A stretch of 64,000 nucleotides of DNA from Tachypleus tridentatus (Eukaryota > Arthropoda > Merostomata > Xiphosura > Limulidae), in the NCBI RefSeq assembly GCF_004210375.1, contig NC_134833.1, positions 140,980,127 through 141,044,126 of the forward strand. The letters are read 5' to 3'. The notes under the pieces are model-generated. The model was not told the origin of the DNA, made no database searches, and saw only the letters and a list, made by a program, of their open reading frames with translations. Within the stretch, counting starts at the first letter, position 1. Every line of letters begins with the position of its first letter. Shown here piece after piece: positions 12,561-63,114 of the stretch. A program made the translations under genes and the position numbers.

Positions 12561-12785
12561 ATTTTCTTCAGTCTTTTGAATGATAAATGATACGAATGGA
12601 GAATACTGGTATTGTTCTCTGAGTAGAAGGTGATCACTGCTTGCCCGCGCGAAACGTAAAGTGACAAAGAGAGTTCGAGCTCTTAACTCTAAATTTTATG
12701 AATATTGATTGCAGTTCCAAATACGCTTGCAAGTTTATATTTCGAGTGACATCGAAAGATAATTTCGTATCTAATATTTATCTGT

Positions 12786-13566: not shown

Positions 13567-14205
13567 CTAGGCTTTATCTCCCTCACAAATAAGTATAACT
13601 CTGTAGTACCTAGGCTTCATCTGTCTTATCTGATAGATGATGATTATAACTCTGTAGTACTTAGGCTTCACTTGTCTTATCTGATAGATGATTATAACTC
13701 TGTAGAACCTAGGCTTCACCTGTCTTATCTGATAGATGATTATAACTCTGTAGTACCTAGGCTTCATCTGTCTTATCTGATAGATGATTATAACTCTGTA
13801 GTACCTAGGCTTCACCTGTCTTATCTGATAGATGATTATAACTCTGTGGTACCTAGGTTTCACCTGTCTTATCTGATAGATGATTATAACTCTGTAGTAC
13901 CTAGGCTTCATCTATCTTATCTGATATATGACTATAACTCTGTAGTACCTAGACTTCACCTGTCTTATCTGATAGATTATTATAACTCTGTAGTACCTGG
14001 GCTTCACCTGTCTTATCTGATAGATGATTATAACTCTGTAGTACCTGGGCTTCATCTGTCTTATCTGATAGATTATTATAACTCTGTAGTACCTGGGCTT
14101 CATCTGTCTTATCTGATAGATGATTATAACTCTGTAGTACCTGGGCTTCATCTGTCTTATCTGATAGATGATTATAACTCTGTAGTACCTAGGCTTCATC
14201 TATCT
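13567..14205. repeat. 48 bp minisatellite, open on both strands
   Basis: About 13 units of 48 bp (16 codons): CTGTCTTATCTGATAGATGA, TTATAACTCTGTAGTACCTA and GGCTTCAC. Because 48 is divisible by three, uninterrupted frames run along both strands (plus: LSYLIDDYNSVVPRLH repeats; minus: VKPRYYRVIIIYQIRQ repeats). One unit near 13630 has an extra 3 bp. The central units are nearly identical; the edges decay, the usual pattern of a satellite homogenised by unequal exchange. Confidence 0.93.
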
Positions 14206-39701: not shown

Positions 39702-40518
39702 CTAGTTTCCAAGATCCGAGTTTTGGACATACACATCACAAGCTCCATTATAATAATATTAACTGCGATACTGATATGTTTTCGTGTTCAATTTTCTGTG
39801 TGACTAGCACGTTATTGAGAACCTTATAACCAACGAATTCATGGATTCACAAACAAATTGGTGCATAAATATTCCCCCCCCCGTCTAACCCCGGTTTTAA
39901 ATCCCATACCAGTTGTCTCAAGAATACATTTTTATTTCAAGTGGGTTTCTCGTCATCATGAATTAATTAATGGGTTCTTATATTCTGAGAAACAGATAAG
40001 TTATTCGTCAGTAAATCTGCAGACTTATATCGCTAAAAACCGGATTTCGATTACCGTAGTGGACATAGCACAGAGAGTCTGTTGTCTACCTTTGTCCTTA
40101 ATAATAAACTAACAAATACTGCATATTTCACAAACAAACATTTCAAAAACAACCTCTCAGTGGCTCAGCGATAAATCATAGGACTTATATCGCAAAAAAA
40201 AAAAAATAGTTTCGATAAACGCTGTGGACACAAATTCTCTGTTGCGTACGTTTGTTCTTAACAATGAGCAAACTAACTTTTGGAATAGCGAACTTTGCGC
40301 TATGAAAAAGAAATAATACAAATTATCTTTGCTTTTCTCTGTCATGAAATAGAAACTAGATTATGAAAGTGAGAAACTGACATGTTTCAAACATGAGGTT
40401 TTGTGTTATAGCATTCTTCTCAGGTCATCACGTGCAGCTGATACTCGAAAAGTATTGCGTTATACAGTATGCCATTTAAAAAACTACATCTTTGTAGCTA
40501 CATTTATAATGTAGAAGG

Positions 40519-40797
40519 TTTTTTTGTTTGTTTTGGAATTTCGCACAAAGCTACTCGAGGGCTATCTGTGCTAGCCGTCCCTAATTTAGCAGTGTAAGAC
40601 TAGAGGGAAGGCAGCTAGTCATCACCACCCACCGCCAACTCTTGGGCTACTCTTGTACCAACGAATAGTGGGATTCACCGTCACATTATAACGCCCCCAC
40701 GGCTGGGAGGGCGAGCATGTTTGGCGCGACGTGGGCGCGAACCCGCGACCCTCGGATTACGAGTCGCACGCCTCACGCGCTAGGCCATGCCAGGCCA
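40519..40797 (-). repeat. SINE-A inserted in unit copy A
   Basis: Full minus-strand SINE-A (TTTTTTGTTTGTTTTGGAAT to the GGCCTGGCATGGCC complement). Flanked by AATGTAGAAGG on the left and AACGTAAAAGG on the right. Copy B (about 55700-55715) lacks the SINE and has AATGTAGAAGGAAAAG continuous: a natural empty site. Confidence 0.95.
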
Positions 40798-40970
40798 ACG
40801 TAAAAGGAAAAGAATTATGAAACTTTGAGCATTTATTTCACACTTGGGTGGTTATTATTTACAATAAATAAACACATTAAAGGAATTAAAAATAGTTTTG
40901 TTATTTATTCTGTTGAAACTTTAGCTTTCTTTGGAATCAAGAAAGATTTATGTCCTGTTTAAGGAAGGCT

Positions 40971-43372
40971 AGAAGTTGAAACTTATCTCTGTATGTATTT
41001 GTTGATCCATAGGAAGGGTAAAAGTTGAAACTTATCTCTGTATGTATTTGTTGATCCATAGGAAGGGAAGAAGTTGAAATTTATCTCTGTATGTATTTGT
41101 TGGCCCATAGGAAGGGTAAAAGTTGAAACTTATCTCTGTATGTATTTGTTGGCCCATAGGATGGATAGAAGTTTAAACTTATCTCTGTATGTATTTGTTG
41201 ATCCATAGGAAGGGTAGAAGTTTAAACTTATCTCTGTATGTATTTGTTGGCCCATAGGAAGGGTAAAAGTTGAAACTTATCTCTGTATGTATTTGTTGGC
41301 CCATAGGAAGGGAAGAAGTTGAAATTTATCTCTGTATGTATTTGTTGATCCATAGGAAGGGTAAAAGTTGAAACTTATCTCTGTATGTATTTGTTGATCC
41401 ATAGGAAGGGTAAAAGTTGAAACTTATCTCTGTATGTATTTGTTGATCCATAGGAAGGGTAAAAGTTGAAACTTATCTCTGTATGTATTTGTTGATCCAT
41501 AGGAAGGGTAAAAGTTGAAACTTATCTCTGTATGTATTTGTTGATCCATAGGAAGGGTAAAAGTTGAAACTCATCTCTGTATGTATTTGTTGATCCATAG
41601 GAAGGGTAAAAGTTGAAACTCATCTCTGTATGTATTTGTTGATCCATAGGAAGGGTAAAAGTTGAAACTTATCTCTGTATGTATTTGTTGATCCATAGGA
41701 AGGGTAAAAGTTGAAACTTATCTCTGTATGTATTTGTTGATCCATAGGAAGGGTAGAAGTTTAAACTTATCTCTGTATGTATTTGTTGGCCCATAGGAAG
41801 GGTAAAAGTTGAAACTTATCTCTGTATGTATTTGTTGGTCCATAGGAAGGGCAAGTTGAAACTTATCTCTGTATGTATTTGTTGGCCCATAGGAAGGGTA
41901 GAAGTTTAAACTTATCTCTGTATGTATTTGTTGGCCCATAGGATGGATAGAAGTTTAAACTTATCTCTGTATGTATTTGTTGATCCATAGGAAGGGTAGA
42001 AGTTTAAACTTATCTCTGTATGTATTTGTTGGTCCATAGGAAGGGCAAGTTGAAACTTATCTCTGTATGTATTTGTTGATCCATAGGAAGGGTAGAAGTT
42101 TAAACTTATCTCTGTATGTATTTGTTGATCCATAGGAAGGGTAAAAGTTGAAACTTATCTCTGTATGTATTTGTTGGCCCATAGGAAGGGAAGAAGTTGA
42201 AATTTATCTCTGTATGTATTTGTTGGTCCATAGGAAGGGTAAAAGTTTAAACTTATCTCTGTATGTATTTGTTGGCCCATAGGAAGGGAAGAAGTTGAAA
42301 TTTATCTCTGTATGTATTTGTTGATCCATAGGAAGGGTAGAAGTTGAAACTTATCTCTGTATGTATTTGTTGGTCCATAGGAAGGGCAAGTTGAAACTTA
42401 TCTCTGTATGTATTTGTTGGCCCATAGGATGGATAGAAGTTTAAACTTATCTCTGTATGTATTTGTTGATCCATAGGAAGGGTAGAAGTTTAAACTTATC
42501 TCTGTATGTATTTGTTGGCCCATAGGAAGGGTAAAAGTTGAAACTTATCTCTGTATGTATTTGTTGGTCCATAGGAAGGGCAAGTTGAAACTTATCTCTG
42601 TATGTATTTGTTGATCCATAGGAAGGGTAGAAGTTTAAACTTATCTCTGTATGTATTTGTTGGCCCATAGGAAGGGTAGAAGTTTAAACTTATCTCTGTA
42701 TGTATTTGTTGATCCATAGGAAGGGTAAAAGTTGAAACTTATCTCTGTATGTATTTGTTGATCCATAGGAAGGGAAGAAGTTGAAACTTATCTCTGTATG
42801 TATTTGTTGGTCCATAGGAAGGGCAAGTTGAAACTTATCTCTGTATGTATTTGTTGATCCATAGGAAGGGTAGAAGTTTAAACTTATCTCTGTATGTATT
42901 TGTTGGCCCATAGGAAGGGTAGAAGTTTAAACTTATCTCTGTATGTATTTGTTGATCCATAGGAAGGGTAAAAGTTGAAACTTATCTCTGTATGTATTTG
43001 TTGGCCCATAGGAAGGGTAGAAGTTTAAACTTATCTCTGTATGTATTTGTTGATCCATAGGAAGGGTAAAAGTTGAAACTTATCTCTGTATGTATTTGTT
43101 GATCCATAGGAAGGGAAGAAGTTGAAACTTATCTCTGTATGTATTTGTTGGCCCATAGGAAGGGCAGAAGTTGAAACTTATCTCTGTATGTATTTGTTGA
43201 TCCATAGGAAGGGTAAAAGTTGAAACTTATCTCTGTATGTATTTGTTGATCCATAGGAAGGGAAGAAGTTGAAACTTATCTCTGTATGTATTTGTTGGCC
43301 CATAGGAAGGGAAGAAGTTGAAACTTATCTCTGTATGTAATTGTTGGCCCATAGGATGGATAGAAGTTGAAA
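40971..43372. repeat. 49 bp minisatellite, ~49 units
   Basis: Unit: AAAGTTGAAACTTATCTCTG, TATGTATTTGTTGATCCATA, GGAAGGGTA (49 bp). Variants: GATCC, GCCC or GTCC at one site, and a 46 bp form with GGGCAAGTTG. Higher-order structure is visible: near-identical blocks recur at 41718, 41912, 42253, 42447 and 42690, spacings of 194, 341, 194 and 243 bp, close to 4, 7, 4 and 5 units. Short frames on the minus strand are by-products of the repeat. Confidence 0.96.
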
Positions 43373-43443
43373 GTTACGAAGAAATTATAAAACAAAATTT
43401 GTATGAAGACAAAATTCGTAATTTAATTTTGATGGAACATTCA

Positions 43444-43569
43444 GTTTGTTTGTGTTTTGTAATTAAGCACAAAACAAAATAATGGACGAAATTTGCTCTG
43501 CCCACTATGGGTATCGAAACACAGATTCTAGCGTTGTAAGTCTGTAGACATACCGCTATGGCACTGGGA
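43444..43569 (-). repeat. SINE-B shared by both unit copies
   Basis: Tail GTTTGTTTGTGTTTTGTAAT, head TCCCAGTGCCATAGCGGTAT (complement). Present at the same place in copy B (56991-57116), so it predates the duplication. Confidence 0.85.
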
Positions 43570-43671
43570 AAGGGGCTGAAGAAATAAAATATATTTTTGT
43601 AAATCTTGATAATAAAGAAGCGGTTCCCTTCCTTTGATGTTTTCACTCGAGGTTATAATTTTATACTAAAC

Positions 43672-44364
43672 TTATGTATATATGTTTTCGTAACATGTTA
43701 AGCCTTTTGTTTTTTTTTAAAGCTATTGTATGTAGGTTGTAGGGCACTAAAACTGCACGAGGTCGCATGTAATTACACAGCTCTCACTGTTTGGAATATT
43801 AAAGCTTAAACTGCATGACATGAACTGATACTGTATAGTTGTAATTAACATGTTAAATATGTGGAAAAGATAATTATGATAACTATTGTGATAATTGTTC
43901 CAATTAGATTCCGGAGTACAGAAGAAATGTACGAGTTCGTCTTTTTGGCAAAGTATAAATTTAACTTTATTACACTAAAATGTGATTATAACTGACGTGG
44001 TAAGTATGTAGAATAAAGTCAGTGTCTACTGTTCCAATTGCATATTGTAGGAGGAATGTATGTGCACGTACTTCTTGGCGCAGTATAAACTCGATTATAT
44101 AACACTGCATTTTGATCAAAGATCACATGCGTGTTCATAAGATATCACGGTATTTAAATACAGATGAGTTAATGAGAAAGTGACACGAGATATCATCACG
44201 GTCTTAATCCTTTTAACATTATGGAAAATCTGGAATTTACACTTAGAAGTTCCTGATCAGAACTACAAGCTGAGTTAACTAGATTATTAATAATCTCTCA
44301 AAATTATGGTGTCAAAACAGTTTTATTAAAGTTCCTCTACTCCGCCTTGGTGTTGCATGAACGT
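43672..44364. other. unique AT-rich DNA
   Basis: No feature recognised. Confidence 0.4.
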
Positions 44365-44372
44365 TATTACAA

Positions 44373-44649
44373 GTTTGTTTGTTATGGAATTTCGCGTAAA
44401 GCTACACGAGGGCTATTTACGCTAGTCGTCCGTAATTTAGCAGTGTAAGACTAGAGAGAAGGCAACTAGTCATCACCACCCACTGCCAACTCTTGGGCTA
44501 CTCTTTTACCAACGAAAAGTGAGATTGACCGTCACATTATAACGCCCCCACGGCTGAAAGGGCGAGCATGTTTGGTGTGACGGAGATCTGAACCCGCGAC
44601 CCTCAGATTACGAGTCGAACGCCTTAACTCACTTGGCCATGTCGGGCCA
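44373..44649 (-). repeat. SINE-A, full length with target duplication
   Basis: Tail GTTTGTTTGTTATGGAATTT, body, B box GATCTGAACCCGCGACC, head GGCCCGACATGGCCAAGTGA (complement). TATTACAA flanks it at 44365-44372 and 44650-44657. Confidence 0.93.
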
Positions 44650-44826
44650 TATTACAACTACATCAAGGTCGTATAATTATTAAAGTTGTCTTTCTTACAC
44701 TTGGAGTGTTTTGGGATGATGAGTGCTTCCAAGACAAATTACGTGTTTTAACTTCATAAGAGAAAGCTTTCAAAGTCGATGTTAATATTATGCAATGAAA
44801 TTATATACGTATTTGCTAACGTAAAT

Positions 44827-44879
44827 TTATTTGTTTGTTTTGAATTTCGCGTAAAGCTACTCGAAGGCTATTTGCGCTT
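44827..44879 (-). repeat. severely 5'-truncated SINE-A (53 bp)
   Basis: Only the 3' tail was inserted: TATTTGTTTGTTTTGAATTT, CGCGTAAAGCTACTCG, AAGGCTATTTGCGCT. Perfect 10 bp target duplication TAACGTAAAT at 44817-44826 and 44880-44889. Confidence 0.92.
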
Positions 44880-44889
44880 TAACGTAAAT

Positions 44890-45384
44890 AATGTTTCTAC
44901 CTAAATGCTGATGTACGGCACAAACTGGAATCTACGACTCGGTTGTAATTGAAAATGTTTTCCATGTTTCTGTACTTATAAGAAAGGCTGACTAGAGAAT
45001 GTCTATTCCCCTTTTTTAATAGTGTTTTCGAAAAAAAAAAAGCCAAATCAAACCGAAAACATCAGTGATAAAAAGTAAAACCAGCAACTAAAATTAACGT
45101 TTTATATTTCTCACTTCTACAACTAACTGGATTTTAAGAAAATCTGTTGTTTGTGTTTAGTTTTAACTGAAGAAAAGAAATAAATAGTGAAAAAATATCA
45201 GTGCGGTGGTAACCATTTCTAAACAAATCGTTACTAACTATTAAAACATTAATATAATTCGAGTCATGCAGTGGCTCGGCGGTAAGTCGAAGGCCTGTCA
45301 CGCCTTGTCACACAAAATATATTTTTATTATTTAGTTTACTTGGCTTTGAAAGAAAACTTATATGAAAATGCTGTTCTGGTTTA
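44890..45384. other. unique DNA with a SINE-B head fragment
   Basis: A fragment near 45267-45312 (CATGCAGTGGCTCGGCGGTA) resembles a SINE-B head. Otherwise nothing recognised. Confidence 0.45.
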
Positions 45385-45497
45385 GTTTGTTTCTTCTTTA
45401 CCAAGCACAGAGTTACACAATGTGCTGTGGCCACCCGAAGTATGGAAACTGTTATTTGGCGGTGTGAGCCTTTAGACGTACTCCCGAGCCACTGGGG
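45385..45497 (-). repeat. SINE-B
   Basis: Tail GTTTGTTTCTTCTTTACCAA then GCACAGAGTTACACAATG, head GCCCCCAGTGGCTCGGGAGT (complement). Diverged. Confidence 0.78.
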
Positions 45498-45707
45498 GCG
45501 AGGGGGCTTTAGTTTTGAAATAAAAACGAATAAGAAAAAGTTTTAATAATTAATGCAATAATCATACAATTTTAATAATTAATACAACAATTATTGTTTG
45601 ATCAATCAGCCTCAATTAATGTCCCGACATGTATCGTGTGAGATAAGTCTTACTGGTGGTAGTAGCCGTTTAAGTAACATACCTGTATATGACCTTACAT
45701 TTAATGC

Positions 45708-45930
45708 GGAGCACGGCCTAATGACTAACGTGCCGGTCCGCTTACAGTAAGTTCACACTACAATATGCTGTTTGACACACCTCGCACTTTTGATCGTGGA
45801 GCGTTAAAGTATTTTGGCAGTCAATCCTATTGTTCAGTCAAGAGTAGACGTGTAGGCGATGGGTGCTCTGATTGGTTGTCCTCTCGCACGGCAAAATTTC
45901 TGAATTAAGGATAGTTTCGTCTGAGCCTTA
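45708..45930 (+). repeat. diverged SINE-A-like copy with alternative head
   Basis: Head CACGGCCTAATGACTAACGT differs from SINE-A, while GTCAATCCTATTGTTCAGTC and GTAGGCGATGGGTG correspond to the SINE-A body. Same head type as 49366 and 8617. Confidence 0.65.
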
Positions 45931-45935
45931 ATAAG

Positions 45936-46209
45936 GTTTGTTTGGTTTGAATTTCGCGCAAAGCTACATAAGGGCTATCTGAACTAATCGCCCCTAATTT
46001 AACAGTGTAAGACTAAAGGGAAGGCAGCTAGTTATCATCACCCACCGCCAACTTTTGGGCTACTCTTTTACCAACGAACAATGGGATTGACCGTCACGTT
46101 ATAACGCCTCCACGGCTGAAAGGGCAAGCATGTTTGATGTGATGGGGATTAGAACTCTCGACCCTCAGATTACGAATCGAATGCCTTAACCACCTGGCCA
46201 TGCCGAGCC
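45936..46209 (-). repeat. SINE-A, full length
   Basis: Tail GTTTGTTTGGTTTGAATTTC, body TCACCCACCGCCAACTTTTG, head GGCTCGGCATGGCCAGGTGG (complement). Probable imperfect duplication CTTAATAAGG / CTTATAAGG. Confidence 0.92.
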
Positions 46210-46294
46210 ACCTCTTATAAGGTACTATTCCTGTTAAAAAGTACATAATTACTAATCATTGCATTTATTCTTAGAATATGCAGTAAGCTGTTAT

Positions 46295-46400
46295 ATAGTT
46301 TTAATATATCTCAGAACGGCTGGTTTGTGTATTAACACTTTTACCAAAATAAAGCAGAGAACAACGTTTCGACCTTCTTGGGTGATCTTCAGGTAAACAA
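46295..46400 (-). repeat. half-copy of the foldback family
   Basis: AAATAAAGCAGAGAACAACG followed by TTTCGACCTTC and GATCTTCAGGTAAACAAAG matches one arm of the palindrome at 38.6 kb. Confidence 0.7.
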
Positions 46401-46983
46401 AGAGATATAGTTAGTTTTAAGCAGTAAACTGCACATTGAGCTGTCTGCCTTGTACCAACCATAGGTATGGAACCCCCGTTTTAGCACTATAAGCTTTTAA
46501 GTTTACCATTGAGCCACCATGGTAAAGGTCAACAATTAAACAAAGAAACATGGAAAAAAGTATGTCCGATTTGATTTTCTTTAACCTATGTAATTTTATC
46601 ATAGTTCCAAATTTAGTGTATGGTTCAACGAAAGTAAGCTGTCATAACTCCCAGACCTTTGTTTAACCAAAGCGTAAGTAAAGAAACTTTGTCGGTTACG
46701 TTTATTATTTTTTTTATCTCTTCCCCCATATGATCGACAATTCATCAAGCAGGCAGTGGAGCTGCTTGTATAGGGGTGGCTCGGATTGTTCATGGAAATG
46801 GTATTTTAAATATCTCCTCATAGGTCATTAGAACTTTACAATAATATACAGTGTTTCCTTTTATCACAATATCTATATAAAGACTGAGTCACAAATTCTG
46901 ATAATGTTTGTAGATATCATAGTTTGAACTTCTTGTATTTCCTTCTTATTACATAATAATTCAAAAACCAAAACAATGATGTC
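46401..46983. other. mostly unique DNA with a SINE-B remnant
   Basis: A decayed SINE-B-like piece is at about 46435-46525 (GCACTATAAGCTTTTAAGTT, then GAGCCACCATGG). No gene seen. Confidence 0.45.
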
Positions 46984-47247
46984 AGCCATTGGCAGCTGGT
47001 TAAGGTACTTGAATCGTAATCCGAGGGTCGCGGGTTCGAATCCCGTAACACCAAACGTGCTCACTTTTTCAGCCATGGGGGCGTATATTGTAAGGGTCAT
47101 TCTCACTATTCGTTGGTAAAAGAGTAGCCCAAGAGTTTGCTGTGGGTGGTAATGACTAACTACCTTCTCTCTAGTCTTACACTGCTAAATTAGGGACGGC
47201 TAGCGCAGATAGCCTTCGTGTAGCTTTGTGTGAAATTCAAAACAAAC
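46984..47247 (+). repeat. SINE-A, 5' end slightly damaged
   Basis: Head CCATTGGCAGCTGGTTAAGG, perfect B box GGGTTCGAATCCCG, body AGAGTTTGCTGTGGGTGGTA, tail TGTGAAATTCAAAACAAAC. Confidence 0.9.
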
Positions 47248-47394
47248 TTATTAGTAATTTAAAAAATAATAACTCTAATGAAACCAATGTTATAATTGCC
47301 CCTTGAAGTTAGCTTTCTCACAAAAAATTGTACCTTCAAAAGACATAGGTACAGGGTGAAGAAGAAATTACAAACCAATAATAGTTAAACAATA

Positions 47395-48954
47395 CACTGC
47401 TGGACAAAATCTTAAGGCGAATGAACATAAAGAAAAAATATGCATTTTGCATTGTTAGATCAACCACATATTTGAGTAGAGCTTCGAAAGATGAAAATCA
47501 AAAAACCTTTTTAGCATTTAATAGGGAAAATGTGAACACTATGAAATTAGCCTAAATACTCGATGGTCAAAAGTTTAAGATAATACTGAAACGAAGCGTT
47601 AATCGGTAAACACGTAACATTTAGTCATTTGTGTTCAAGCATTAGCGTTGTTAAAATCTCCCACTGACATCTTCTGTGTTACTTTGGGTAAAAACATGGC
47701 AAAGGCTAAAAAGTTGACAGAGTTTGAACGTGGCAGAATTGTCGAGCTCCAAAAGCAAGTTCTTTCTCAACGTGCTGTCGCTGGTGAGATTGGGCGTAGT
47801 AAAACTGCTGTTGTAAATTTTTTAAAAGACCCTAATGGATACGGAACGAGAAGTTGAAGTGGTCGGCTCAAGAAAATTTTGCTGGCGTTGAGCAGGAGGA
47901 TTCGGCGGGTTGTCTGGCAAGACACCAGCCAATCGTCGAATCAGATTAAGGCTCTTACGGACGCGGAATGCAGCTCAAGAATAATAAGACGGCATCTACG
48001 GGAGAAAGGCTTTAAAAACTGTAAACGTCTTCAAAGGCCACGCCTCCTTCCACACCACGAAACAGCTCGGTTAAACTTTGCTGAGAAGTACCAAACATGG
48101 GCCGTAGAAAAGTAGACGAAGGTTTTGTTCTCTGATGAGAAACAATTTAACCTAGATGGTCCAGATGGCTTCCAACTTTACTGGCACGATGAGGATATCC
48201 CACCAGAGATATTTTCTACACGACACAGCAGAGGAGGTTCCATCATGATCTGGAGTGCTTTCTCCTTTCATGGAACAATGGAGCTTCAGGTTATACAGGG
48301 GCGTCAAACAGCAGCTGGCTACATTGGCAAGTTGGAGAGAGCATCCTTATTGACTGAAGGCCCTCGCTTGTGTGGAAATGACTGGGTCTTTTAGCAGGAC
48401 ATACGCCGCAATCCACAATGCCCGCAGGGTAAAGGACTTTTTCATGACGAATAACGTGATTCTTTTGGACCATCCAGCGTGTTCGCCTGACCTGAACCCC
48501 ATTGAAAATGTTTGGGGGGTGGATGGCAAGAGAAATCTATAGAAATGGACGTCAATTCCAAACAGTGCATGATCTTCGTGAAGCCATCTTGACCACTTGG
48601 AATAATATTCCAGCCAGTCTTCTGCAAACGCTTATATCTACCATGCCAGAGCGAATGTTTGAAGTTATTCGCAATGACGGCCGTGCAACTCACTACTGAG
48701 ACCTCTTGTAGGGTATTTTCTACCCTGTTTATGACTTTTTTTTGGTATGGTCTTAAACTTTTGACCAGCTAGTATTTAGGCTAATATCATAGTGTTCACA
48801 TTTTCCCTATTAAATGCTAAAAAGTTTTTTTTTTATCTTCCCTTTTCTTATTTTCATCTTTCTAAGCTCTATTCAAATAAGTGGTTGAGTCTAACAACGC
48901 AAAATGCATATTTTTTCTTTATGTTCATTACCCTTAAGATTTTGGCCAGCAGTG
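47395..48954 (+). mobile_element. Tc1-like DNA transposon, copy 2
   Basis: 1560 bp with ends CACTGCTGGACAAAATCTTA and TAAGATTTTGGCCAGCAGTG, flanked by TA (47393-47394 and 48955-48956). Same family as the copies at 1.06 and 53.27 kb. It is the only copy of the three with near-perfect outer ends and an uninterrupted layout. Confidence 0.94.
47696..48699 (+). pseudogene. Tc1-like transposase, three main lesions
   Basis: Start ATG 47696 (MAKAKKLTEFERGRIVEL), final TGA 48697-48699. The N-terminus carries the helix-turn-helix that binds the element ends (residues about 5-55, including SQRAVAGEIGRSKTAVVNFL). A TGA follows TRS at about 47855, a TAG falls within [11 protein letters not shown] (about 48114) and a frameshift with an early TAG occurs at the second catalytic Asp (DWVF, about 48392). 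First catalytic Asp ([12 protein letters not shown]) intact. C-terminus MPERMFEVIRNDGRATHY. Confidence 0.92.
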
Positions 48955-49057
48955 TATATATTATAGTTGGAACTGTGATGTATTTATTTAGAGCGTGGTT
49001 GTGAATACAAATTTCCTTTATCTACTGAAACAATGCATTAAATAAAACATTCAAACG

Positions 49058-49339
49058 AGTAAAGAAAAAAAACGTTTCAAAAGAGGAAGTAAATCTATGG
49101 ATGGCTTATATCAATCCTTCAACAACAATACGAACAAGATAATAGGGATAGCATTTGTATCATCCCTACAAAATAGCAAGGCACCAATTAACGTATAGTA
49201 ATACAAATAATTATTAATCACAAACCAATAAGATAAATTAATCCCAAGTGCCATTCCTATTGTCTTGTTTGTATTATGCTGTTATTGATATAAGCCAGCC
49301 CTACACTTACTTCCTGTTTTAAATGTTTGTTTCTTTACT
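49058..49339. mobile_element. foldback / MITE-like element with ~95 bp inverted arms
   Basis: Left arm AGTAAAGAAAAAAAACGTTT..., GGCTTATATCAATCC, GAACAAGATAATAGGGATAG; the right arm is its imperfect reverse complement (GCCATTCCTATTGTCTTGTT, TTGATATAAGCCAGCC, TTTCTTTACT). The AT-rich centre is about 90 bp. No coding capacity. Confidence 0.82.
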
Positions 49340-49365
49340 ATACATTGAAAAGTCGCTCAAGTGAC

Positions 49366-49510
49366 GAGCTGGGATTGGCCTAATGATTAGCGTCGAAGGT
49401 TGGAGCCACGATGTGTCACGAAACACACACTGCACTTTAGCCATAGAGCCTTAACACTGCTATAGTCATTATGACTGTTCAGCTAAGAGAAACTATGTAA
49501 GCGGTGAGTT
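49366..49510 (+). repeat. SINE fragment with alternative head
   Basis: GATTGGCCTAATGATTAGCG then ACACACTGCACTTTAGCCAT parallels the copy at 45708; the 3' half is missing. Confidence 0.55.
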
Positions 49511-50965
49511 CTGTTGACTTTCTTTTGGTCATAAGTTTTAAGTTAGTGATGGCTTTGCTTGAAGGTTGGGGGGATACGTTACGTCGCTGACAGTTCTATG
49601 TTCCATAAGGTGTCCCTTAGGCTGAAAGTACCCATCTACAATGGGTTACTTGTTTTAAGAGTTTATAAAATGATACTTTTGTATAACGTTTTTGAAGAGT
49701 TGGTGACGTATGTACATTGTATACATCAGGACAAAAAAAAAACAAACTAGACATATTAACAAACTTTCTTTAATTAGTTTGTGGCGCTCCTGAATTTGTT
49801 TTGGTAAGCATGCCCCGAGAATCGAGTTTGGAACTTGAGAGGACGGGCTCAGATATCTGAACATATTTTATGTAAATTAACTATTTCCAAGTCTTTTAAG
49901 CATCTTGGGAGGCTATCCTCTGTTACATAGGCAAAGAAAACGTCAAGTACTGGAGAATGTTTGATTGGTTAATCATTTCACTAGGCTGGCCAATCAGTAC
50001 AAACGTAGTCCGAAATGAATACACCTAATAATACACCAATAATTTGCATATCAAGTCAACGTCTGTAGTAACCTTTCACCTAGTGTCAGTTGAGCGATTC
50101 GAATGCGTGTTTAATCGACACGGGAGTGTCCTTTTGTCACCTAGTGTTCAAGATCATTAATACATCTGTAATATATATTTAATTATTCGGATTTCTGAGC
50201 CTTGAATTTTGTGTTTCTCTTCTTCAAAATTAATTTAATATAACAATGTATAAAACTTCCACGTAACGTATGTAGTTCCTAGTAGCGTATATAAAAAGTG
50301 AGGGGTAGCAGCCTCAATTCCATAGGCTCTATGGTGCCTAGCAAAGAGTTTTTTGTTCTTCTCTTAGTATTTTCATTCATTCTGCATAATATATCAAAAC
50401 CAGAAAAAAATCGTAGTTTTATTTCACCATCAAGAGTGTCAGTTTTTCTAATCTTCGCTACATTTTTTTAACAGAAGTTTGAAGAGATAAGGTTTGCATA
50501 TTGGTCGGTCCATGTAATAAAAAAGAATGACTAGACACTGAGATCACGGTAACGCATCCGATATTGGCAAGCTATTTGTCAAGTTCTGTGTCAGCTTGTT
50601 TAGCTGAGTTCTATTTGTCAATTTATTTATTTTTTTTTCTCACCGGACCGGCTGCTGAGCTCAAAGAAAACAACAAAATATATTCATGGTGAAAAAGAAT
50701 TCCAAAGCAAGTTTTCAAACTGGTGGTCAATATTAATATATATGTAAGATATATAAAAAGAACGCTCAATATAAATAGATACAAGTACACGTATCACGAA
50801 GAATAATTACTGCAGTTAGAGATAAATAAAACTGGAAAGATAACTTCGTGTAAGTTATTTATGTAAGATAAAATTATGAAAAAGAATGACTCGCTTGAAT
50901 CTAGATGTTTATATTAGATTTACAAAATCTCTTCATTCGTACGGAATGTAAGACAACAGAAAGAT
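49511..50965. other. unique AT-rich DNA
   Basis: No gene or repeat recognised. Confidence 0.4.
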
Positions 50966-51059
50966 TGTTTGTTATTAAACCTACACAAAGTTTCGGGTAT
51001 CGAAACTCGGTTTCTAGCAGTATAAATTCGTAGACATACCATTGTGCCACTGGGGGTAG
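50966..51059 (-). repeat. SINE-B, shortened
   Basis: GTTTGTTATTAAACCTACAC, then GGGTATCGAAACTCGG (B box) and CCCCCAGTGGCACAATGGTA (complement head). About 25 bp of the tail side is missing. It abuts the 52 bp array. Confidence 0.8.
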
Positions 51060-51084
51060 TTGAAAAAGGATGATTCAATAACAC

Positions 51085-51660
51085 ACTCACCTAAGTAGGA
51101 GGTTCACTTCAATATAGGTGTTTATGTAACATAATAGACTTTCTTAAGTAGGAATTTCACTTCAATATAGGTGTTTATGTAACATAATAAACTTACTAAG
51201 TAGGAGGCTCACTTCAACATAGGGATTTATGTAACATAATAAACTTACTAAGTAGGAGGTTCACTTCAATATAAGGATTTATGTAACATAATAAACTTAC
51301 TAAGTAGGAGGTTCACTTCAATATAGGGATTTATGTAACATAATAAACTTACTAAGTAGGAGGTTCACTTCAATATAGGGATTTATGTAACATAATAAAC
51401 TTATTGAGTAGGAGGTTCACTTCAATATAGGTGTTTATGTAACATAATAAACTTACTAAGTAGGAGGCTCACTTCAACATAGGGATTTATGTAACATAAT
51501 AAACTTACTAAGTAGGAGGTTCACTTCAATATAGGGATTTATGTAACATAATAAACTTACTAAGTAGGAGGTTCACTTCAATATAGGGATTTATGTAACA
51601 TAATAAACTTATTGAGTAGGAGGTTCACTTCAATATAGGTGTTTATGTAACATAATAGAC
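51085..51660. repeat. 52 bp minisatellite with higher-order structure
   Basis: About 11 units: CTTACTAAGTAGGAGGTTCA, CTTCAATATAGGGATTTATG, TAACATAATAAA. A marked variant (AGGCTCACTTCAACATAGGG) recurs exactly 260 bp apart (about 51206 and 51466, five units) and another (TTATTGAGTAGGAGG) about 208 bp apart (51402 and 51609, four units). This is the footprint of unequal exchange duplicating a multi-unit block. Confidence 0.95.
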
Positions 51661-51850
51661 ATATTTAAGCAGAGATGTTCATTTCAGTCTAGGTGTTTAT
51701 GTTAGACATAGATATACGAATATACGAATGTAAAATATGTACATACGAATCAGAAAAGTGTACTTCAGTTTGGATATTTGTGTAAGGTATAGACATTCAA
51801 AACACAGAAGTTCACTTCACTCTGGATATTTAGTCTATTTCAGTATGTGT
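51661..51850. repeat. degenerate edge of the 52 bp array
   Basis: Decayed units: GAGATGTTCATTTCAGTCTA, AAGTGTACTTCAGTTTGG, AAGTTCACTTCACTCTGG. Marks the un-homogenised end of the array. Confidence 0.7.
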
Positions 51851-52346
51851 CGTATTTTTTTATAAGAAACATTACAAGCTTCTCAAAATTCAGAGACAAG
51901 CGAGTAACACTAAGTGGAATCATGAAGGTGAAGACGGATGATTAGTATTGAAGATATTTATTTTGAGAAACGCCAATCGATTTGAAATGCAGCGTTTTCC
52001 ATCTTTAATGAAATCAGGAAAACGTTGTATAATGAAATCATTAACTAATGTACTTGAAAGATAAATTTAAAAGTAAGGAAGTGTCAGATTATGTACCCGA
52101 AGTAGGAAGATTGTATATAAGGTATGAAGTTGTAATAAACATGACCTTGGTTGTCAGGTGCCATATTAATTTATTACTAGAAGTTCAGGCAAGCAGTCGA
52201 TGGTCTCCCTTGCTAACTCAATAAACAATGATAGGTGAGTATTCGCACAAATATAAGAAGTTTCTTCCAAATTTTTGTTTGCTTTATGCGATTTATTTTT
52301 CATTTCATAAATATAAACAGAAGTAAAACCTCACTTTCGTCCTCCG
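51851..52346. other. unique DNA
   Basis: No feature recognised. Confidence 0.4.
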
Positions 52347-52356
52347 TACCACATAG

Positions 52357-52479
52357 CGTGTGTGCATTTTTTTCTTGTAGTAAAACCACATCGGGCTATC
52401 TGCTAAGTCCACGGAGGCGAATCGAACCCGTAATTTTAGCGTTGTAAATCCGTAGACTTACCGCTGTACTAACGGGAGA
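52357..52479 (-). repeat. SINE-C, full length with target duplication
   Basis: AGCGTGTGTGCATTTTTTTC, TAAAACCACATCGGGCTATC, B-box-like GCGAATCGAACCCGT, then head CCGTTAGTACAGCGGTAAGT (complement). Perfect 10 bp duplication CGTACCACAT at 52347-52356 and 52480-52489. Gives the full length (~123 bp) of the family seen truncated at 9.1 kb. Confidence 0.93.
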
Positions 52480-52489
52480 CGTACCACAT

Positions 52490-53268
52490 GGTCGTGGGAA
52501 TGAAAACTGTGGGTAGCGGAGTGACGGATGCTCAGTCATGTTTCGAAACATTGAGTAAAAACAAACTTTAGAATTTATTTGATGTATTTATGTATTTATT
52601 ACCTTGAAGTAGCATATTTATTAATCCATTAATCTATGGATTGTTTGCGTAGATGTTAATCTTGGGTTTAATAATCATCAACATTTGATTTCCGAGAATG
52701 TTAGGATAAATTATTATTTTGTTGATCGGGGACAGCCTAATGTGTAACAAGTTTTGAACATTTACTTAACTGGTACAGTGTTAGACATAAATTTGTTCCT
52801 ATTTGATTAACACAGTACACATTTCAGTGCACAAGAGCAGGCATACACCAGCAACAACAAAACATGGGAAATGATTACCATAAGATACTCACTGATATAT
52901 AGTAATACATAATATACGGAATAACGCTTTAAAACCGTTTAACATTTTCTGTTGGTTTGTTGTTTATATTATTTTTCATTATCACAAGACTTGTTTTGCT
53001 TCAAAAGTTTAGACTATAAATGAATTATAATACATTTATCAGGTAGTGTTTCTTATTAATATGATTGTATCCAGTTGTTTTGGAAAGTAATTTTACGTGA
53101 ATTTATTTTATCTCTTTCTCCTTTTTAATATTTAACTTGAGTTATTATGTTTATATATTAAGGCACATTCCCTGACTTTTATGGTACATTTTCAAAATTC
53201 CGGTACACCTTCCACCCCTTTGTCATCGAAGTTTCTGCGTTCCAACAGAAAAATTGTACCCCCGCATA
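52490..53268. other. unique AT-rich DNA
   Basis: No feature recognised. Confidence 0.4.
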
Positions 53269-53527
53269 TACACTGCTGGCCAAAATCTTAAGTTCAATGA
53301 ACAAAAAGAAAAAAAAAATATGCATTTTGCATCGTTGGACTCAACCACTTACTTGAGTGGAGCTTTGAAAGATGAAAATAAAAAATGGAAAATAAAAAAA
53401 ACGTTTTTAGCATTTAATAGAGAAAATGTGAACACTATGATATTGGCCTAAATACTAGCTGATCAAAAGTTTAAGACCATGCCAAAAAGAAGTCATAAAC
53501 AGGGTAGACAATACCCTACAAGAGGTC

Positions 53528-54390
53528 TCAGTAGTGAGATGCACGGCCGTCATTGCAAATAACTGCAAAAATTCGCTTTGGCATGGTCGATATAAGCGTT
53601 TGCAGAAGGCTGGCCGGAATGTTGGTGAAGGTGGCTTCACGAAGATCATGCACTGTTTGGAATTGACGTCCATTTCTATAGACTTTCCATGCCATCCACC
53701 CACAAACATTTTCAATGGGGTTCAGTTCGGGCGAACACACTGGATAGTCCAAAAGAATCACGTTATTCGCCATTAAAAAATCCTTTATCCTGCGGACATT
53801 GTGGATTGCAGCGTTGTCCACCTGAAAGATCCAGTCATTTCCACACAGGCGAGGGTCTTCAGTCAATAAGGATGCTCTCTTCAACATGCCAATGTAGCCA
53901 GCCGCTGTTTGACGCCACTGTATAACCTGAAGCTCCATTGTTCCATAGAAGGAGAAAGACCCCAGATCATAATGAAACCTCCTCCACTGTGTCGTGTAGA
54001 AAATGTCTCCAGTGGGATATCCTCATCGTGCCAGTAACGTTGGAAGCCATCTGGACCATCCAGGTTAAATTGTTTCTCATCAGAGAACAAAACCTTCGTC
54101 CACTTTTCTACGTCCCATGTTTGGTGCTTCTCAGCAAAGTTTAACCGAGCTGTTTCGTGGTGTGGAAGGAGGCGTGGCGTTTGAAGACGTTTACGGTTTT
54201 TAAAGCCTTTCTTTCGTAGATGCCGTTTGATTGTTCTTGATCTGCATTCTGCGTCCGTAAGGGCCTTAATCTGGTTCGACGATCGCCTGGTGTCTTGCCG
54301 GGCAACCCGTCGAATCCTCCTGCTCAACGCCGGCGAAATGTTCTTGGGCCGACCACGTCCAAACTCTGCCAACATTTTAGCGTTTACCAT
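53528..54390 (-). pseudogene. Tc1-like transposase, helix-turn-helix deleted, one frameshift
   Basis: Start codon at 54388-54390 ([14 protein letters not shown]), stop complement at 53528-53530 (CNDGRASHY end). Compared with the 47.7 kb copy about 43 codons are missing immediately after GRGR, removing most of the DNA-binding domain, in frame with [15 protein letters not shown] single frameshift near 53900-53940 separates two long frames. All catalytic residues survive: [22 protein letters not shown], and LNPIENV, with exactly 34 residues between second Asp and Glu. This is the least damaged catalytic domain of the family in the window. Confidence 0.92.
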
Positions 54391-54926
54391 GTTTTTACCC
54401 AATGTAACATAGAAGATGTCAGAGGGAGATGTTGACAACGCTAATTCTCGAACACAAATGACTAATTTCGTTACGTGTTTACCAATTAACACTTCGTTTC
54501 AGTATGGTCTTAAATTATTGACCAGGTAGTATTTAGGCTAATTTAATAGTGTTCACATTTTCCCTATTAAATGCTAAAAAGTTTTTTTATTTTTATTTTC
54601 CCTTTTTTTTATTTTCATCTTTTATCTCGTTTCCGAGATCCGAGTTTTGGACATACACATCAAAAGCTCCATTATAATAATATTAACTGCGATACTAATA
54701 TGTTTTTGTGTTCAATTTTCTGTGTGACTAGCATGTTATTGAGAACCTTATAAACAAGGAATTCATGGATTCATAAACAAATATTCCCCCCCGTCTACCC
54801 CCCGGTTTTAATTCCCGTACCAGTCGTCTCAAGAATACCTTTTTTATTTCAAGTTGGTTTCTCGTCATTATGAATTAATTAATGGGTTCTTGTATTCTGA
54901 GAAACAGGTAAGTTATTCGTCAGTGG

Positions 54927-55202
54927 GCCTGGCATGGCCGAGCGCGATAAGGCATGCGCTCGGAATCTGAGGGTCGCGGGTTTGCATCCGAGTCGCGCTA
55001 AACATGCTCGCCCTCCCAGCCGTGGGGGCGTTATAATGTGACGGTCAATCCCACTTTTCGTTGGTAAAAGAGTAGCCCAAGAGTTGGCGGTGGGTGGTGA
55101 TGACTAGCTGCCTTCCCTCTAGTCTTACACTACTAAATTAGGGACGGCTAGCACAGATAGCCCTCGAGCAGCTTTGTGCGAATTTCAAAACAAACGAAAC
55201 AA
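54927..55202 (+). repeat. SINE-A inserted in unit copy B
   Basis: Full plus-strand SINE-A (GGCCTGGCATGGCCGAGCGC to AAACGAAACAAACGAAA). Flanked by TATTCGTCAGT on both sides. Copy A (about 40000-40015) has TTATTCGTCAGTAAATC uninterrupted: a natural empty site. The head has GAGCGCGATAAGG instead of GGTGGGTTAAGG, as does the SINE in copy A on its own strand. Confidence 0.95.
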
Positions 55203-55880
55203 ACGAAATATTCGTCAGTAAATCTGCAGACTTATATCGCTAAAAACCGGATTTCGATTACCGTAGTGGACATAGCACAGAGAGTCTGTTGTGTACCTTT
55301 GCGCTTAACAATAAACTAACAAACACTGCATATTTCAGAAACGAAGATTTAAAAAACAACCTCTTAGTGTCTCAGCGATAAACCATAGGATTTATAATGC
55401 AAAAAATTGAGTTTCGATAAACGTTGTGGACACAAATTCTCTGTTGGGTAGGTTTGTTCTTAACAATGAGCAAACTAACTTTTGAAATAGCGCACTTTGC
55501 GCTATGAAAAAGAAATAATATAAATTGTCTTTGCTTTTCTCTGTCATGAAATATAAACTAGATTATGAACGTGAGAAACTGACATATTTGAAACACGAGG
55601 TTTTGTGTTATAGCATTCCTCTGAGGTCATCACATGCAGCTAATACTCGAAAAGTATTGCACTATACAGTATGCCATTTAAAAACATTTGTAGCTACATT
55701 TATAATGTAGAAGGAAAAGAATTATGAAACTTTGAGCATTTATTTCACACTTGGGTGGTTATTATTTACAATAAATAAACACATTAAAGGAATTAAAAAT
55801 AGTTTTGTTATTTATTCTGCTGAAACTTGAGCTTTCTTTGAAAACAAGAAAGATTTATGTCCTGTTTAAGGAAGGGTAGT

Positions 55881-56919
55881 AGAAGTTGAAACTTATCTCT
55901 GTGTGTATTTGTTGGTCCATAGGAAGGGAAGAACTTGAAACTTATCTCTGTATGTATTTGTTGATCCATAGGAAGGGAAGAAGTTGAAACTTATCTCTGT
56001 TTGTATTTGTTGGCCCATAGGAAGGGAAGAAGTTGGAACTTATCTCTGAATGTATTTGTTGGCCCATAGGAAGGGTAGAAGTTGAAACTTATCTCTGTAT
56101 GTATTTGTTGGCCCATAGGAAGGGAATAAGTTGAAACTTATCTCTGTATGTATTTGTTGGTCCATAGGAAGGGAAGAACTTGAAACTTATATCTGTATGT
56201 ATTTGTTGATCCATAGGAAGGGTAGAACTTGAAACTTATCTCTGTATGTATTTGTTGGTCCATAGGAAGGGTAGAAGTTGAAACTTATCTCTGTATGTAT
56301 TTGTTGATCCATCGGAAGGGAAGAACTTGAAACTTATATCTGTATGTATTTGTTGATCCATAGGAAGGGTAGAACTTGAAACTTATCTCTGTATGTATTT
56401 GTTGATCCATCGGAAGGGTAGAAGTTGGAACTTATCTCTGTATGTATTTGTTGGCCCATAGGAAGGGAAGAAGTTGAAACTTATCTCTGTATGTATTTGT
56501 TGATCCATCGGAAGGGTAGAAGTTGGAACTTATCTCTGTATGTATTTGTTGGCCCATAGGAAGGGAAGAAGTTGAAACTTATCTCTGTATGTATTTGTTG
56601 GCCCATAGGAAGGGAAGAAGTTGAAACTTATCTCTGTATGTATTTGTTGGCCCATAGGAAGGGAAGAAGTTGAAACTTATCTCTGTATGTATTTGTTGGC
56701 CCATAGGAAGGGAAGAAGTTGAAACTTATCTCTGTATGTATTTGTTGGCTCATAGGAAGGGAAGAAGTTGAAACTTATCTCTGTATGTATTTGTTGGCCC
56801 ATAGGAAGGCTAGAAGTTGAAACTTATCTCTGTATGTATTTGTTGGCCCATAGGAAGGGTAGAAGTTGAAACTCATCTCTGTATGTATTTGTTGGCCCAT
56901 AGGAAGGGCAAGTTGAAAG
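55881..56919. repeat. 49 bp minisatellite, ~21 units
   Basis: Same unit as at 41-43.4 kb, but with its own common variants (GAACTTGAAACTTATATCTG; CCATCGGAAGGG; GAAGTTGGAAC), so the two arrays have been homogenised separately since duplication. Confidence 0.95.
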
Positions 56920-56990
56920 TTACGAAGAAATTATAAAACAAAATTTGTATGAAGACAAAATTCGTAATTTCATTTTGATGAAATTTTCAG

Positions 56991-57116
56991 TTTGTTTGTG
57001 TTTTGAAATTAAGCACAAAACTAAACAATGGGCTATATGTGTTCTGCCCACTATGGATATCTAAACCCAGATTCTAGCGTTGTGAGTCTGCAGACATACC
57101 GCTATGGCACTGATAG
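56991..57116 (-). repeat. SINE-B shared by both unit copies
   Basis: Paralogue of 43444-43569; copy B keeps AAACTAAACAATGGGCTATA, closer to the family consensus than copy A. Confidence 0.85.
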
Positions 57117-57429
57117 GGGGGCTGGAGAAATAAAATATATTTTTGTAAATCCTGATAATAAAGAAGCGGTTCTCTTCCTTTGATTTTTTCTCTCGGGGTT
57201 ATAATTTTATACTAAACGTATAGAGCTCTACTCAAATAAGGTAGTATTTAGGCTAATTTCATAGTGTTCACATTTTCCCTATTAAATGCGAAAAAAAAGT
57301 TTTTTTTATTTTCCCTATTCTTATTTTCATCTTTCGAAGCTCTACTGAAATAAGTGGTTGAGTCTAACAACGCAAAATGCATATTTTTTCTTTATGTTCA
57401 TTGGCCTTAAGATTTTGGCCAGCAGTGTA

Positions 57430-59400: not shown

Positions 59401-59990
59401 ACATCTATATAAATATAATAGTACTGACTGTTGTAGGTCCTTGTAACTACTTATCTATATAAATATAACAGTAGTGTGTTTTATGTTCATGTAACTACTT
59501 GTCTACAGAAATATAATAGTATTGTCTGTTTTATGTTCATGTAACTACTTATCTATATAAATATAATAGTACTGTCTGTTGTGTGTCCATTTAACTACTT
59601 TTCTATATAAATATAATAGTACTGGCTGTTGTGTGTCCATTTAACTACTTATTTATATAAATATAATACTACTGTCGTCTGTCCACATAACTATTTATCT
59701 ACAGAGTGTTCGGAAAGTCACTGTGCACTTATATATTTATTAACAGACATGTTTCAATATAGAATACAGGAGGTAAATATGAATGACAATTATAAACAAT
59801 GTTAAAAGTGACCCCGTTGGCATCAATACAGGCCTGGATCATTCTTATTTTGTTTCTAAACACCGCTATCAGTTGCTGGCTTGAAATAGACTGAATAAAA
59901 TATGATTACAAAACTGCACAGTGACATTCTGAACACCCTGTATATAAATATAATAGTACTGACTGTTGTATGTCCATCCATATAACTGTT
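59401..59990. repeat. ~50 bp minisatellite, interrupted by a mariner MITE
   Basis: About seven units of TTATCTATATAAATATAATA, GTACTGTCTGTTGTGTGTCC, ATTTAACTAC at 59401-59700. The array resumes at 59941 (TATATAAATATAATAGTACT) after the insertion at 59702-59940. Confidence 0.92.
59702..59940 (-). mobile_element. mariner-type MITE (239 bp) with transposase C-terminus remnant
   Basis: Inverted ends CAGAGTGTTCGGAAAGTCAC / GTGACATTCTGAACACCCTG, about 27 bp with a few mismatches, flanked by TA (59700-59701 and 59941-59942). Read on the minus strand the interior contains a fragment like IRMIQACIDANG, resembling the C-terminal end of mariner-related transposases, so the element is an internal-deletion derivative of an autonomous transposon. 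Confidence 0.88.
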
Positions 59991-60262: not shown

Positions 60263-62377
60263 ATCTAGTTTAAGAATAAAATATTTGTATCAGGAAAGAT
60301 GCGCTACTAATGTAACTACTGTTATTATATCTAAAATATTGCCGTTACAATGAAAAATATCTTATGAGTTTGAAAAAAAAATTAACTGTACATAAAAATA
60401 ATACATGACGTAATATCTACTTAGATAAATTAACATCTTAGTGTGTTTTGTCTTTAAATAATTACATCCAGAAATGCTCTATATCTATAAGTACTATGGA
60501 AATTATTAGTGTTAGCTCATTGAAAAAAAACCCAGAACAAACAGTATTGAAAAATAAATTACAGTTGTAACAGAATACGTCAGTAAAGATATAGCCAGCT
60601 GAAATTTCAAGTAAAATTTTATCTTTCATTGTGCCACAAAACGTCGATTATGTATTACTCTTAATGTGATAACACATATGCCTGACAAGAAATTATAATA
60701 TACACATGTGCAAAACATAAATAAGCGAAAGGTAGGGTTTTACAGTTAAAGTTTTATCATCTTCACCAACGTCAGTAGTAAACCACCGTGTTAAAACTTT
60801 TACTGTTCTTTTGTCTTAAACATGAACGTATAGAAAAATGATTTCTAAAAAGGCTGAGAAACAAAACAAAACATGATAACAGTTTTATCGTTTTTCTTCG
60901 CTGTACGTGAACGATAGGAAACACGATTAAAATAATTACGCTTCCTGCTAGAGTTAAATGATTGTTAGGAGATTTTTTGCAGCATAATATTTATTTCTTT
61001 TTTGTGTGTGTGTTATTACAAAATTCTAAACTGTCAAACTAAAAACATTTCTTTGGCAGATAGGGGTGAAATGATAAAGATTGATCGAAAGGATGAACTT
61101 AAAAAAACGAACTACATCTGTTCGGTAATCTTCAACTAATAAGTTGTCTTTTTTCCCTAAACCTTTATGTTTTTGTATCTAATTTTCAAATCGCGTGGTT
61201 AAGCAAATACTCGCTTGCTAAAGAAACAAAATATTCGTGATTTTAATGTTGTGTTTGAGAATGAAAGTGTATCGATTTTACTAATTTTTTACAACTTTGT
61301 TCACTAAATTTTCGCCACAATTAAATCTTTTCTGGAAAAGTATTTCACAACGAACACGAAGAGACTTGTAATCAGAATTTTGAAGTAGATAAATATATAA
61401 ACCTGCGAACTAACTTACCAAACTTATCTCTGAGCCATGATATGCTGGACTTGTAGAAAGAAACATCAACATAACTGTTTCACGAAACGTAATTGAACCA
61501 TTTGAACCATTTTAGAAAATGTGCGATTGGAGTAAACTACAAATCATAACACGAGATGGTTTTTGTTACATTTTGTAACTGAATTCAAACCCAAATTTAA
61601 TTTCGTCACTAGAAACAATATCTGAAACAAGTAATAATTGTACTGAAAATTCTGTTGCATTCTTAATTATACGTAAAATTTAGGCATATTTCAGTATGTT
61701 TTACGTGAACCCCCGTAAAAGCAGGGTTTTGGCAGAGTTCACGAGTTAAACAAAGTAAACAACCTTTTCTGTAGCTAAACTGAAACATAATGAGGTAGAT
61801 AGTGATATATGTATAAACACAAAACTTTTCGGAAAAGAACTCTTACCATGTAACAGAGGGTAAACAATCATTTGTTTACTGACGTACGTCGTAAATTTGC
61901 TTTAAATTGTATTATTTATATGTTGGTTTGAGAATAATACTTTCAACTGTTGTTTACATGTGTTGGATACGCACAACTGTTTCAACATGAGTTCGATGCA
62001 AGTGTTGAATTTACTTATTTTTAGAAGCGATAGTTTATCTCAAGTTTATTCTGCATCAAATTTCTGATTTTGGAAATGTCGTCCTCCACACTTGTGTTAC
62101 TACAACAGCCAGTTGGCGTCCTTTCAACTATGTTCATATCATGAATACTCTCGCTAAACAATCTATCAAAGCATGTGTGGTGTAGTTCAGTTGTTACTAG
62201 AACATTTTAAAGTTTTTCTTGTTGTTTTGATTGAGAATTATTGTATTATAGTATCTTGTAGTGTGTAGAATGCTCTAGACCTCTGCCAGTTGTTACGTAT
62301 TATAGTTTACCTCGGACGACTATCCGGTTTAATATTACTATTTCAAATAACTGTAAATTTTAGTTTTTATTTAGAAG
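60263..62377. other. unique AT-rich DNA
   Basis: About 2.1 kb, no gene or repeat recognised. Confidence 0.4.
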
Positions 62378-62760
62378 TTGTTTAAATGTTTATGTGTATC
62401 AAATCTGCCAACAAAACTGATACACATACTTTTCTTTTTTGTTGTTTAAATGTTTATGTGTATCAAATCTGCCAACAAGACTGATACACATACTTTTCTT
62501 TTTTTGTTGTTTAAATGTTTATGTGTATCAAATCTGCCAACAAGACTGATACATACTTTTCTTTTTTGTTGTTTAAATGTTTATGTGTTTCAAATCTGCC
62601 AACAAGACTGATACACATACTTTTCTTTTTTTGTTGTTTAAATGTTTATGTGTATCAAATCTGCCAACAAGACTGATACACATACTTTTCTTTTTTTGTT
62701 GTTTAAATGTTTATGTGTATCAAATCTGCCAACAAGACTGATACACATACTTTTCTTTTA
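62378..62760. repeat. six-copy 63 bp tandem repeat, each unit a hairpin
   Basis: Unit: TTGTTTAAATGTTTATGTGT, ATCAAATCTGCCAACAAGAC, TGATACACATACTTTTCTTT. Within each unit TATGTGTATCA and TGATACACATA are perfect 11 bp inverted repeats around AATCTGCCAACAAGAC. Unit 3 has lost four bases of one arm and unit 4 carries a mismatch (GTGTTTC). Confidence 0.95.
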
Positions 62761-62840: not shown

Positions 62841-63114
62841 CATTTGTTTGTTTTGAATTTCGCGCAAAGCTACACGAGGGCTATCTGCGCTAGTCGTCTT
62901 TAATTTAGCAGTGTAAGACTAAAAGGAAGGTAGCTAGTCGTCACCACCCACCGTCAACTCTTGAACTACTCTTTTACCAACGAATAGTGGGATTGGCTGT
63001 TACATTATAACGCCCCCACGGCTGAAAGGGCGAGCATGTTTGGTGTGACGGGATTCGAACCCGCGACCCTCAGATTACGAGTCGTGTGCCTTAACCACTT
63101 GGCCATGCCGAGCC
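62841..63114 (-). repeat. SINE-A, full length
   Basis: Tail ACATTTGTTTGTTTTGAATT, body CACCACCCACCGTCAACTCT, B box GGGATTCGAACCCGCGACC, head GGCTCGGCATGGCCAAGTGG (complement). Confidence 0.93.

Follow-up and report, generated by a model that had tools for sequence, protein, structure and literature searches.

The window is a stretch of 64,000 nucleotides on contig C9 of a 2.17-Gb genome, and it holds two copies of a segment built around a 49-bp minisatellite. Copy A (39702..43675, plus strand) is the donor and copy B (54626..57221, plus strand) is a truncated insert. Both were delimited by pairwise alignment; the last four bases are uncertain, as the homology may be 4 bp longer on the right (TTAT/GTAT) than its firm ends at 43671 and 57217. 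TRF places the array of A at 40962..43376 (plus strand, 49.5 units) and that of B at 55881..56922 (plus strand, 21.3 units). With the arrays masked, self-BLAST pairs the margins in the same order and in direct orientation at 89-96% identity: 39702-40012 with 54626-54924 (89%), 39989-40518 with 55196-55714 (90%), 40797-40961 with 55704-55868 (96%) and 43377-43675 with 56923-57221 (91%). The initial annotation had described a minisatellite-bearing segment that is present twice and has abrupt homology ends. TRF, masked self-BLAST and pairwise alignment confirm the two copies, and in the alignment the homology breaks off sharply, with CT(A/C)GTTTCC at its left end and ATACTAAAC at its right. Its statement that both arms are common to the copies holds once the private SINEs are set aside, but not as it was worded, as one full SINE is private to each copy.

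The SINE found in A only (40519..40799, minus strand) has dispersed relatives and is flanked by an imperfect duplication, GTAGAAGG/GTAAAAGG. The one found in B only (54925..55208, plus strand) has an exact 11-bp flanking duplication, TATTCGTCAGT. We use the name SINE on the basis of the dispersed copies and of a tRNA match in one relative: Rfam gave a single tRNA match, at 63048-63105 within a relative of the private SINEs, and a tRNA search with ARAGORN found none. Both private SINEs were inserted after A had been copied to B. The arms also include older SINE-like and other dispersed pieces. A and B differ at 97 of 1260 aligned sites (7.7%). The private SINEs are left out of this count, and of the arrays just 14 sites in the last partial repeat unit enter it. 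The different flanks of the copies and this divergence speak against a misassembly, which is unlikely.

The two arrays have 1 of 38 distinct unit types in common, end units counted, and site variants common to both suggest an array older than the copying. Uninterrupted identity between A and B extends over 133, 89 and 61 bp in the three longest runs, more than in shuffles (P = 0.001 for the longest, P = 0.00015 for the top three), and this unevenness hints at later gene conversion between the copies. Conversion focused beside the array was considered and rejected, the divergence of sites up to 60, 100 or 150 bp away from the array not being significantly lowered (P 0.15-0.38). Five more minisatellite regions, with basic periods of 42-65 bp, lie in the window at 12781-13456, 13594-14205, 51091-51702, 59403-59676 and 62377-62759.

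A genome search scores no more than 40 candidates and passes over very common words. The count of two copies is based on the right 108 bp and on the array and left-margin queries, for which all candidates were scored. Queried with the rightmost 108 bp, the 2.17-Gb genome yields two candidates, A and B, both of them scored. The left margin with the start of the array also has two candidates genome-wide, and 33 of 33 matches fall within A or B. When the whole left arm was used, SINE-like pieces took up the 40 scored matches, hence the SINE-poor queries. Among the matches scored, A and B alone are full-length for the whole left arm (B in two pieces) and for the right arm; the remaining scored matches of the two arms are 49-147-bp fragments of dispersed repeats. 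The DNA to the right of A is single-copy: the one candidate for this flank in the genome is the flank itself.

The left boundary of A lies within another repeat. R1 is an unclassified dispersed repeat of about 555 bp (39206..~39760, plus strand) that runs across position 39702. Among the best 40 of 158 candidates for the left 189 bp of the segment, 38 places besides A and B match inside the first 80 bp, at 81-93% identity, and past about 80 bp the matches are A and B only. We sampled 20 of the 38 places, and in all 20 the similarity extends leftward over 39702, by at least 88 bp in 19 and by just 9 bp in L036; the number of independent cases is at most 18, as the pairs L046/L047 and L048/L049 are near-identical. 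R1 is intact in A, whereas B has its last ~59 bp alone, with Tc1 sequence immediately before. Because R1 is whole in A and cut in B, A is the donor and B the truncated copy. Base 39702 is a C in both A and B; of the 20 relatives, 16 have G here, 3 have T and 1 has A. Judged from these alignments, the left boundary of the segment is an arbitrary cut within R1 and no terminus; the idea of a common terminus at this position was rejected, as R1 carries on leftward in its relatives.

The two near-identical pairs of 6-kb loci are located on C4 (L046 and L047, at ~104.83 and ~103.77 Mb) and on C2 (L048 and L049, at ~153.10 and ~150.57 Mb). Each pair is confined to one contig, its members 1-2.5 Mb apart and inverted relative to each other; they have 94-99% identity in their longest alignments and may be large inverted duplications or haplotypes retained in the assembly. 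In the R1 copies of L048 (3181-5415) and L049 (576-2764) a 76-bp unit with a piece of R1 is tandemly repeated, up to ~29 units, and so forms a minisatellite that arose within a dispersed repeat.

The element that B interrupts is Tc1-like (53271..57427, minus strand), and B sits in its TIR region on the right-hand side. That it lies inside such an element, and that it arrived there as an insertion, had both been proposed from the sequence alone, and both are borne out. Two minus-strand transposase fragments match Pfam HTH_Tnp_Tc3_2 and DDE_3, the element has CACTGCTGGCC ends beside TA at 53271 and 57427, and the insert is absent from 33 of 33 other copies examined. These 33 are 31 of the 39 other matches (among the best 40 of 2419 candidates) plus two in the window, and their empty sites are paralogous sites. 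The two family members in the window, at 1053-2595 and 47384-48957, are uninterrupted at B's site.

Around the insert, a stretch of the element reading AGTATTTAGG..CATCTTT..CAAATAAG is present twice; the other 33 copies have it once. The first copy (54526..54622, plus strand) is cut after CATCTTT, where the left joint of B adjoins the T run CATCTTTT. The remainder of this copy, GCTCTACTCAAATAAG (57225-57240), stands to the right of B and is followed by a back-jump to GTAGTATTT and by the second copy (57241-57354, 114 bp), the whole spanning 57225..57354 on the plus strand. About 115 bp of the target are thus doubled. The back-jump junction (57228-57252) was found at one place in the 2.17-Gb genome with up to 3 mismatches allowed.

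The alignment of the two copies of the stretch has 99 columns, of which 11 differ when gaps are counted; this is broadly like the divergence of A and B (97/1260) and consistent with one date for both. Over 120 aligned columns, 96 are majority-like in both copies, one change is shared and one site differs in both; the private changes number 6 in the left copy and 16 in the right, several of them in the poorly aligned first bases. A G just before TAGTATTT is found in both copies beside B, in 0 of the 13 other Tc1 copies that were aligned and in 0 of the 33 examined. Since this private G is common to both copies of the stretch, the second was most likely derived from the same Tc1 element, i.e. 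copied from the interrupted element itself.

The initial annotation had further suggested a mobile unit that carries the minisatellite, perhaps a Helitron-like non-autonomous element, as an explanation of how such arrays disperse. The mobile-unit reading fails because the right end and the array with the left margin are found only in A and B, an outcome that the annotation itself had named as refuting it, and because the left boundary is a breakpoint in R1. Terminal inverted repeats and a short target duplication, which are the criteria for a TIR DNA transposon, are absent from the ends of A and B, the best inverted end match being 7 bp (P 0.66 in A, 0.67 in B). Also absent are the Helitron criteria, namely ends shared by many copies, subterminal inverted repeats and a 3' palindrome. 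Folding of the 3' 60 bases gave -1.6 and -1.2 kcal/mol, and of the other end, reversed, -2.0 (A) and -5.7 kcal/mol (B), all without a shuffle control. Where a terminal hairpin or a target duplication had been looked for as a sign of transposition, there is no clear hairpin and no short duplication, and ~115 bp of Tc1 are doubled. Arrays with a period of at least 20 and at least 4 copies occur in 12 of the 42 non-window loci checked and in 10 of the 20 loci of 6 kb, a rough rate, since the 20 loci had been picked by their R1 and two pairs among them are near-duplicates. With arrays in half of the 6-kb loci, no special carrier is needed for an array in a few-kb segment, and the genome seems rich in minisatellite arrays.

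A mobile element of the Helitron or Helentron (HINE) kind, with the minisatellite at its centre, is highly improbable for these reasons: two copies were found, the left end is internal to R1, subterminal inverted repeats are lacking (P 0.66-0.67) and the doubled target measures ~115 bp. The missing family and the missing paired ends contradict it, against a central array, the absence of a classical short target duplication and, at B's end on the opposite strand, a weak hairpin (-5.7 kcal/mol, -2.0 in A, without a shuffle control). B also lies beside the T run CATCTTTT, and Helentrons are described as inserting near T runs without target duplication (PMC4067079, in part); in the oyster, Cg_HINE elements carry arrays between flanking modules (PMC7492417, in part). 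An RNA-templated insertion mediated by a LINE, a class 1 TSIP, has the very lowest standing of the readings considered here and is already contradicted by the features of the ends. LINE protein remnants with exonuclease and RNase H domains are present in the window, but poly(A) is absent at both ends, there is no short target duplication, and the T run at the left is part of the Tc1 majority sequence.

Within their limits, the searches show A to be the donor and B a copy cut short in R1, with two copies of the segment detected and a doubled Tc1 site in B alone. We consider it probable that B arose in a single event, in which A's 39702-~43675 was copied in the course of error-prone repair or replication of the Tc1-like element ~11 kb downstream. 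The pathway, a sequence of template switches, is one that we infer. Synthesis would have departed from the Tc1 template behind CATCTTT, run for ~4 kb along A without a change of orientation, and re-entered Tc1 a few bases further on, at GCTCTACTCAAATAAG. A back-slip of ~115 bp with a 2-base match (AG) would have followed, after which synthesis continued. Such an event would be of the FoSTeS/MMBIR/serial-slippage type. Afterwards, A and B would have diverged, acquired one SINE each and turned over their arrays independently.

Patch repair accounts for the arrangement almost as well as template switching does. Microhomology, the 2 bases AG, is seen at the back-jump only, i.e. at one of three joints; the left joint has a filler of ~2-3 bases, TAT, and the entry to and the exit from A are without evident microhomology, with the 7.7% divergence blurring the joint positions by a few bases. 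According to an excerpt of PMC4056370, FoSTeS, MMBIR and serial slippage are essentially indistinguishable by their breakpoints and require microhomology at each switch. The sparse microhomology is explained no less well by a patch attached through end joining. In such a patch repair the fill-in of a staggered double-strand break in Tc1 would have produced the ~115-bp duplication, and the filler would be a piece of ~4 kb that was either copied from A or broken out of it. Its anatomy matches what is observed, a local duplication around foreign filler, a small loss with filler bases and little microhomology. Small tandem duplications do arise from break repair, with human and plant insertions cited (PMC8355091, in part), and class 2 TSIPs offer a human parallel for the patch (PMC5110952, in part). 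We regard it as a real candidate with a minor share of the probability: it needs an extra step, as 16 bases of the first stretch copy stand to the right of the insert, the inserts in the experimental system of PMC5110952 measure 73-414 bp, far below ~4 kb, and a section heading of that paper reads 'TSIs are derived from RNA'.

The duplication and the insertion could also be two events, a ~115-bp tandem duplication in the Tc1 copy followed by an unrelated insertion of a copy of A into the first unit. This is unlikely. The insert does lie within the first unit, away from its edge, and no sequence in this analysis fixes the order of events, but landing by chance in the sole rearranged unit would be a coincidence, 33 of 33 other copies being without the duplication and the junction occurring once. 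Certain human minisatellites reportedly increase gross rearrangements in yeast, and fork collapse in the 49-bp array might have drawn the array and its margins into a nearby break, the array then promoting conversion between A and B. We think this very unlikely; if true, minisatellites would be able to seed their own dispersal without a transposase.

The mechanism behind B, which we believe to be template switching during repair or replication, is of an ordinary kind. B is an ordinary genomic scar that is unusually legible: a single genome is enough to tell donor, recipient and order of events, thanks to the Tc1 sites without insert, the doubling of the target, the cut through R1 and the SINE private to each copy. 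At this locus the carrier-transposon explanation gives a clean negative, and the case illustrates a cheap test missing from a first reading, namely whether another repeat runs over the supposed terminus.

Among known systems, the Cg_HINE Helentrons of the Pacific oyster resemble A and B in having a tandem array between two modules and no classical target duplication; they come in families whose members share their ends and have subterminal inverted repeats, whereas A and B are two copies without such ends and with a boundary inside R1 (PMC7492417, in part). B has an identifiable donor and ends at arbitrary points of it, and its target is known in the empty state from the 33 paralogous copies; both are marks of a templated insertion or interspersed duplication. 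Like class 2 templated sequence insertions, it has a piece of another locus patched into a break (PMC5110952, in part), and like break-repair tandem duplications it has a short tandem duplication at the break (PMC8355091, in part). It differs from both in its donor ~11 kb away, in an insert much longer than 73-414 bp and in combining the two features. Compared with the FoSTeS/MMBIR/serial-slippage variants in the available part of PMC4056370, B has a larger insert (~4 kb), little or no visible microhomology and old, eroded joints, but it shares with them nearby sequence at the breakpoint together with a short local duplication, on the same chromosome and in the same orientation.
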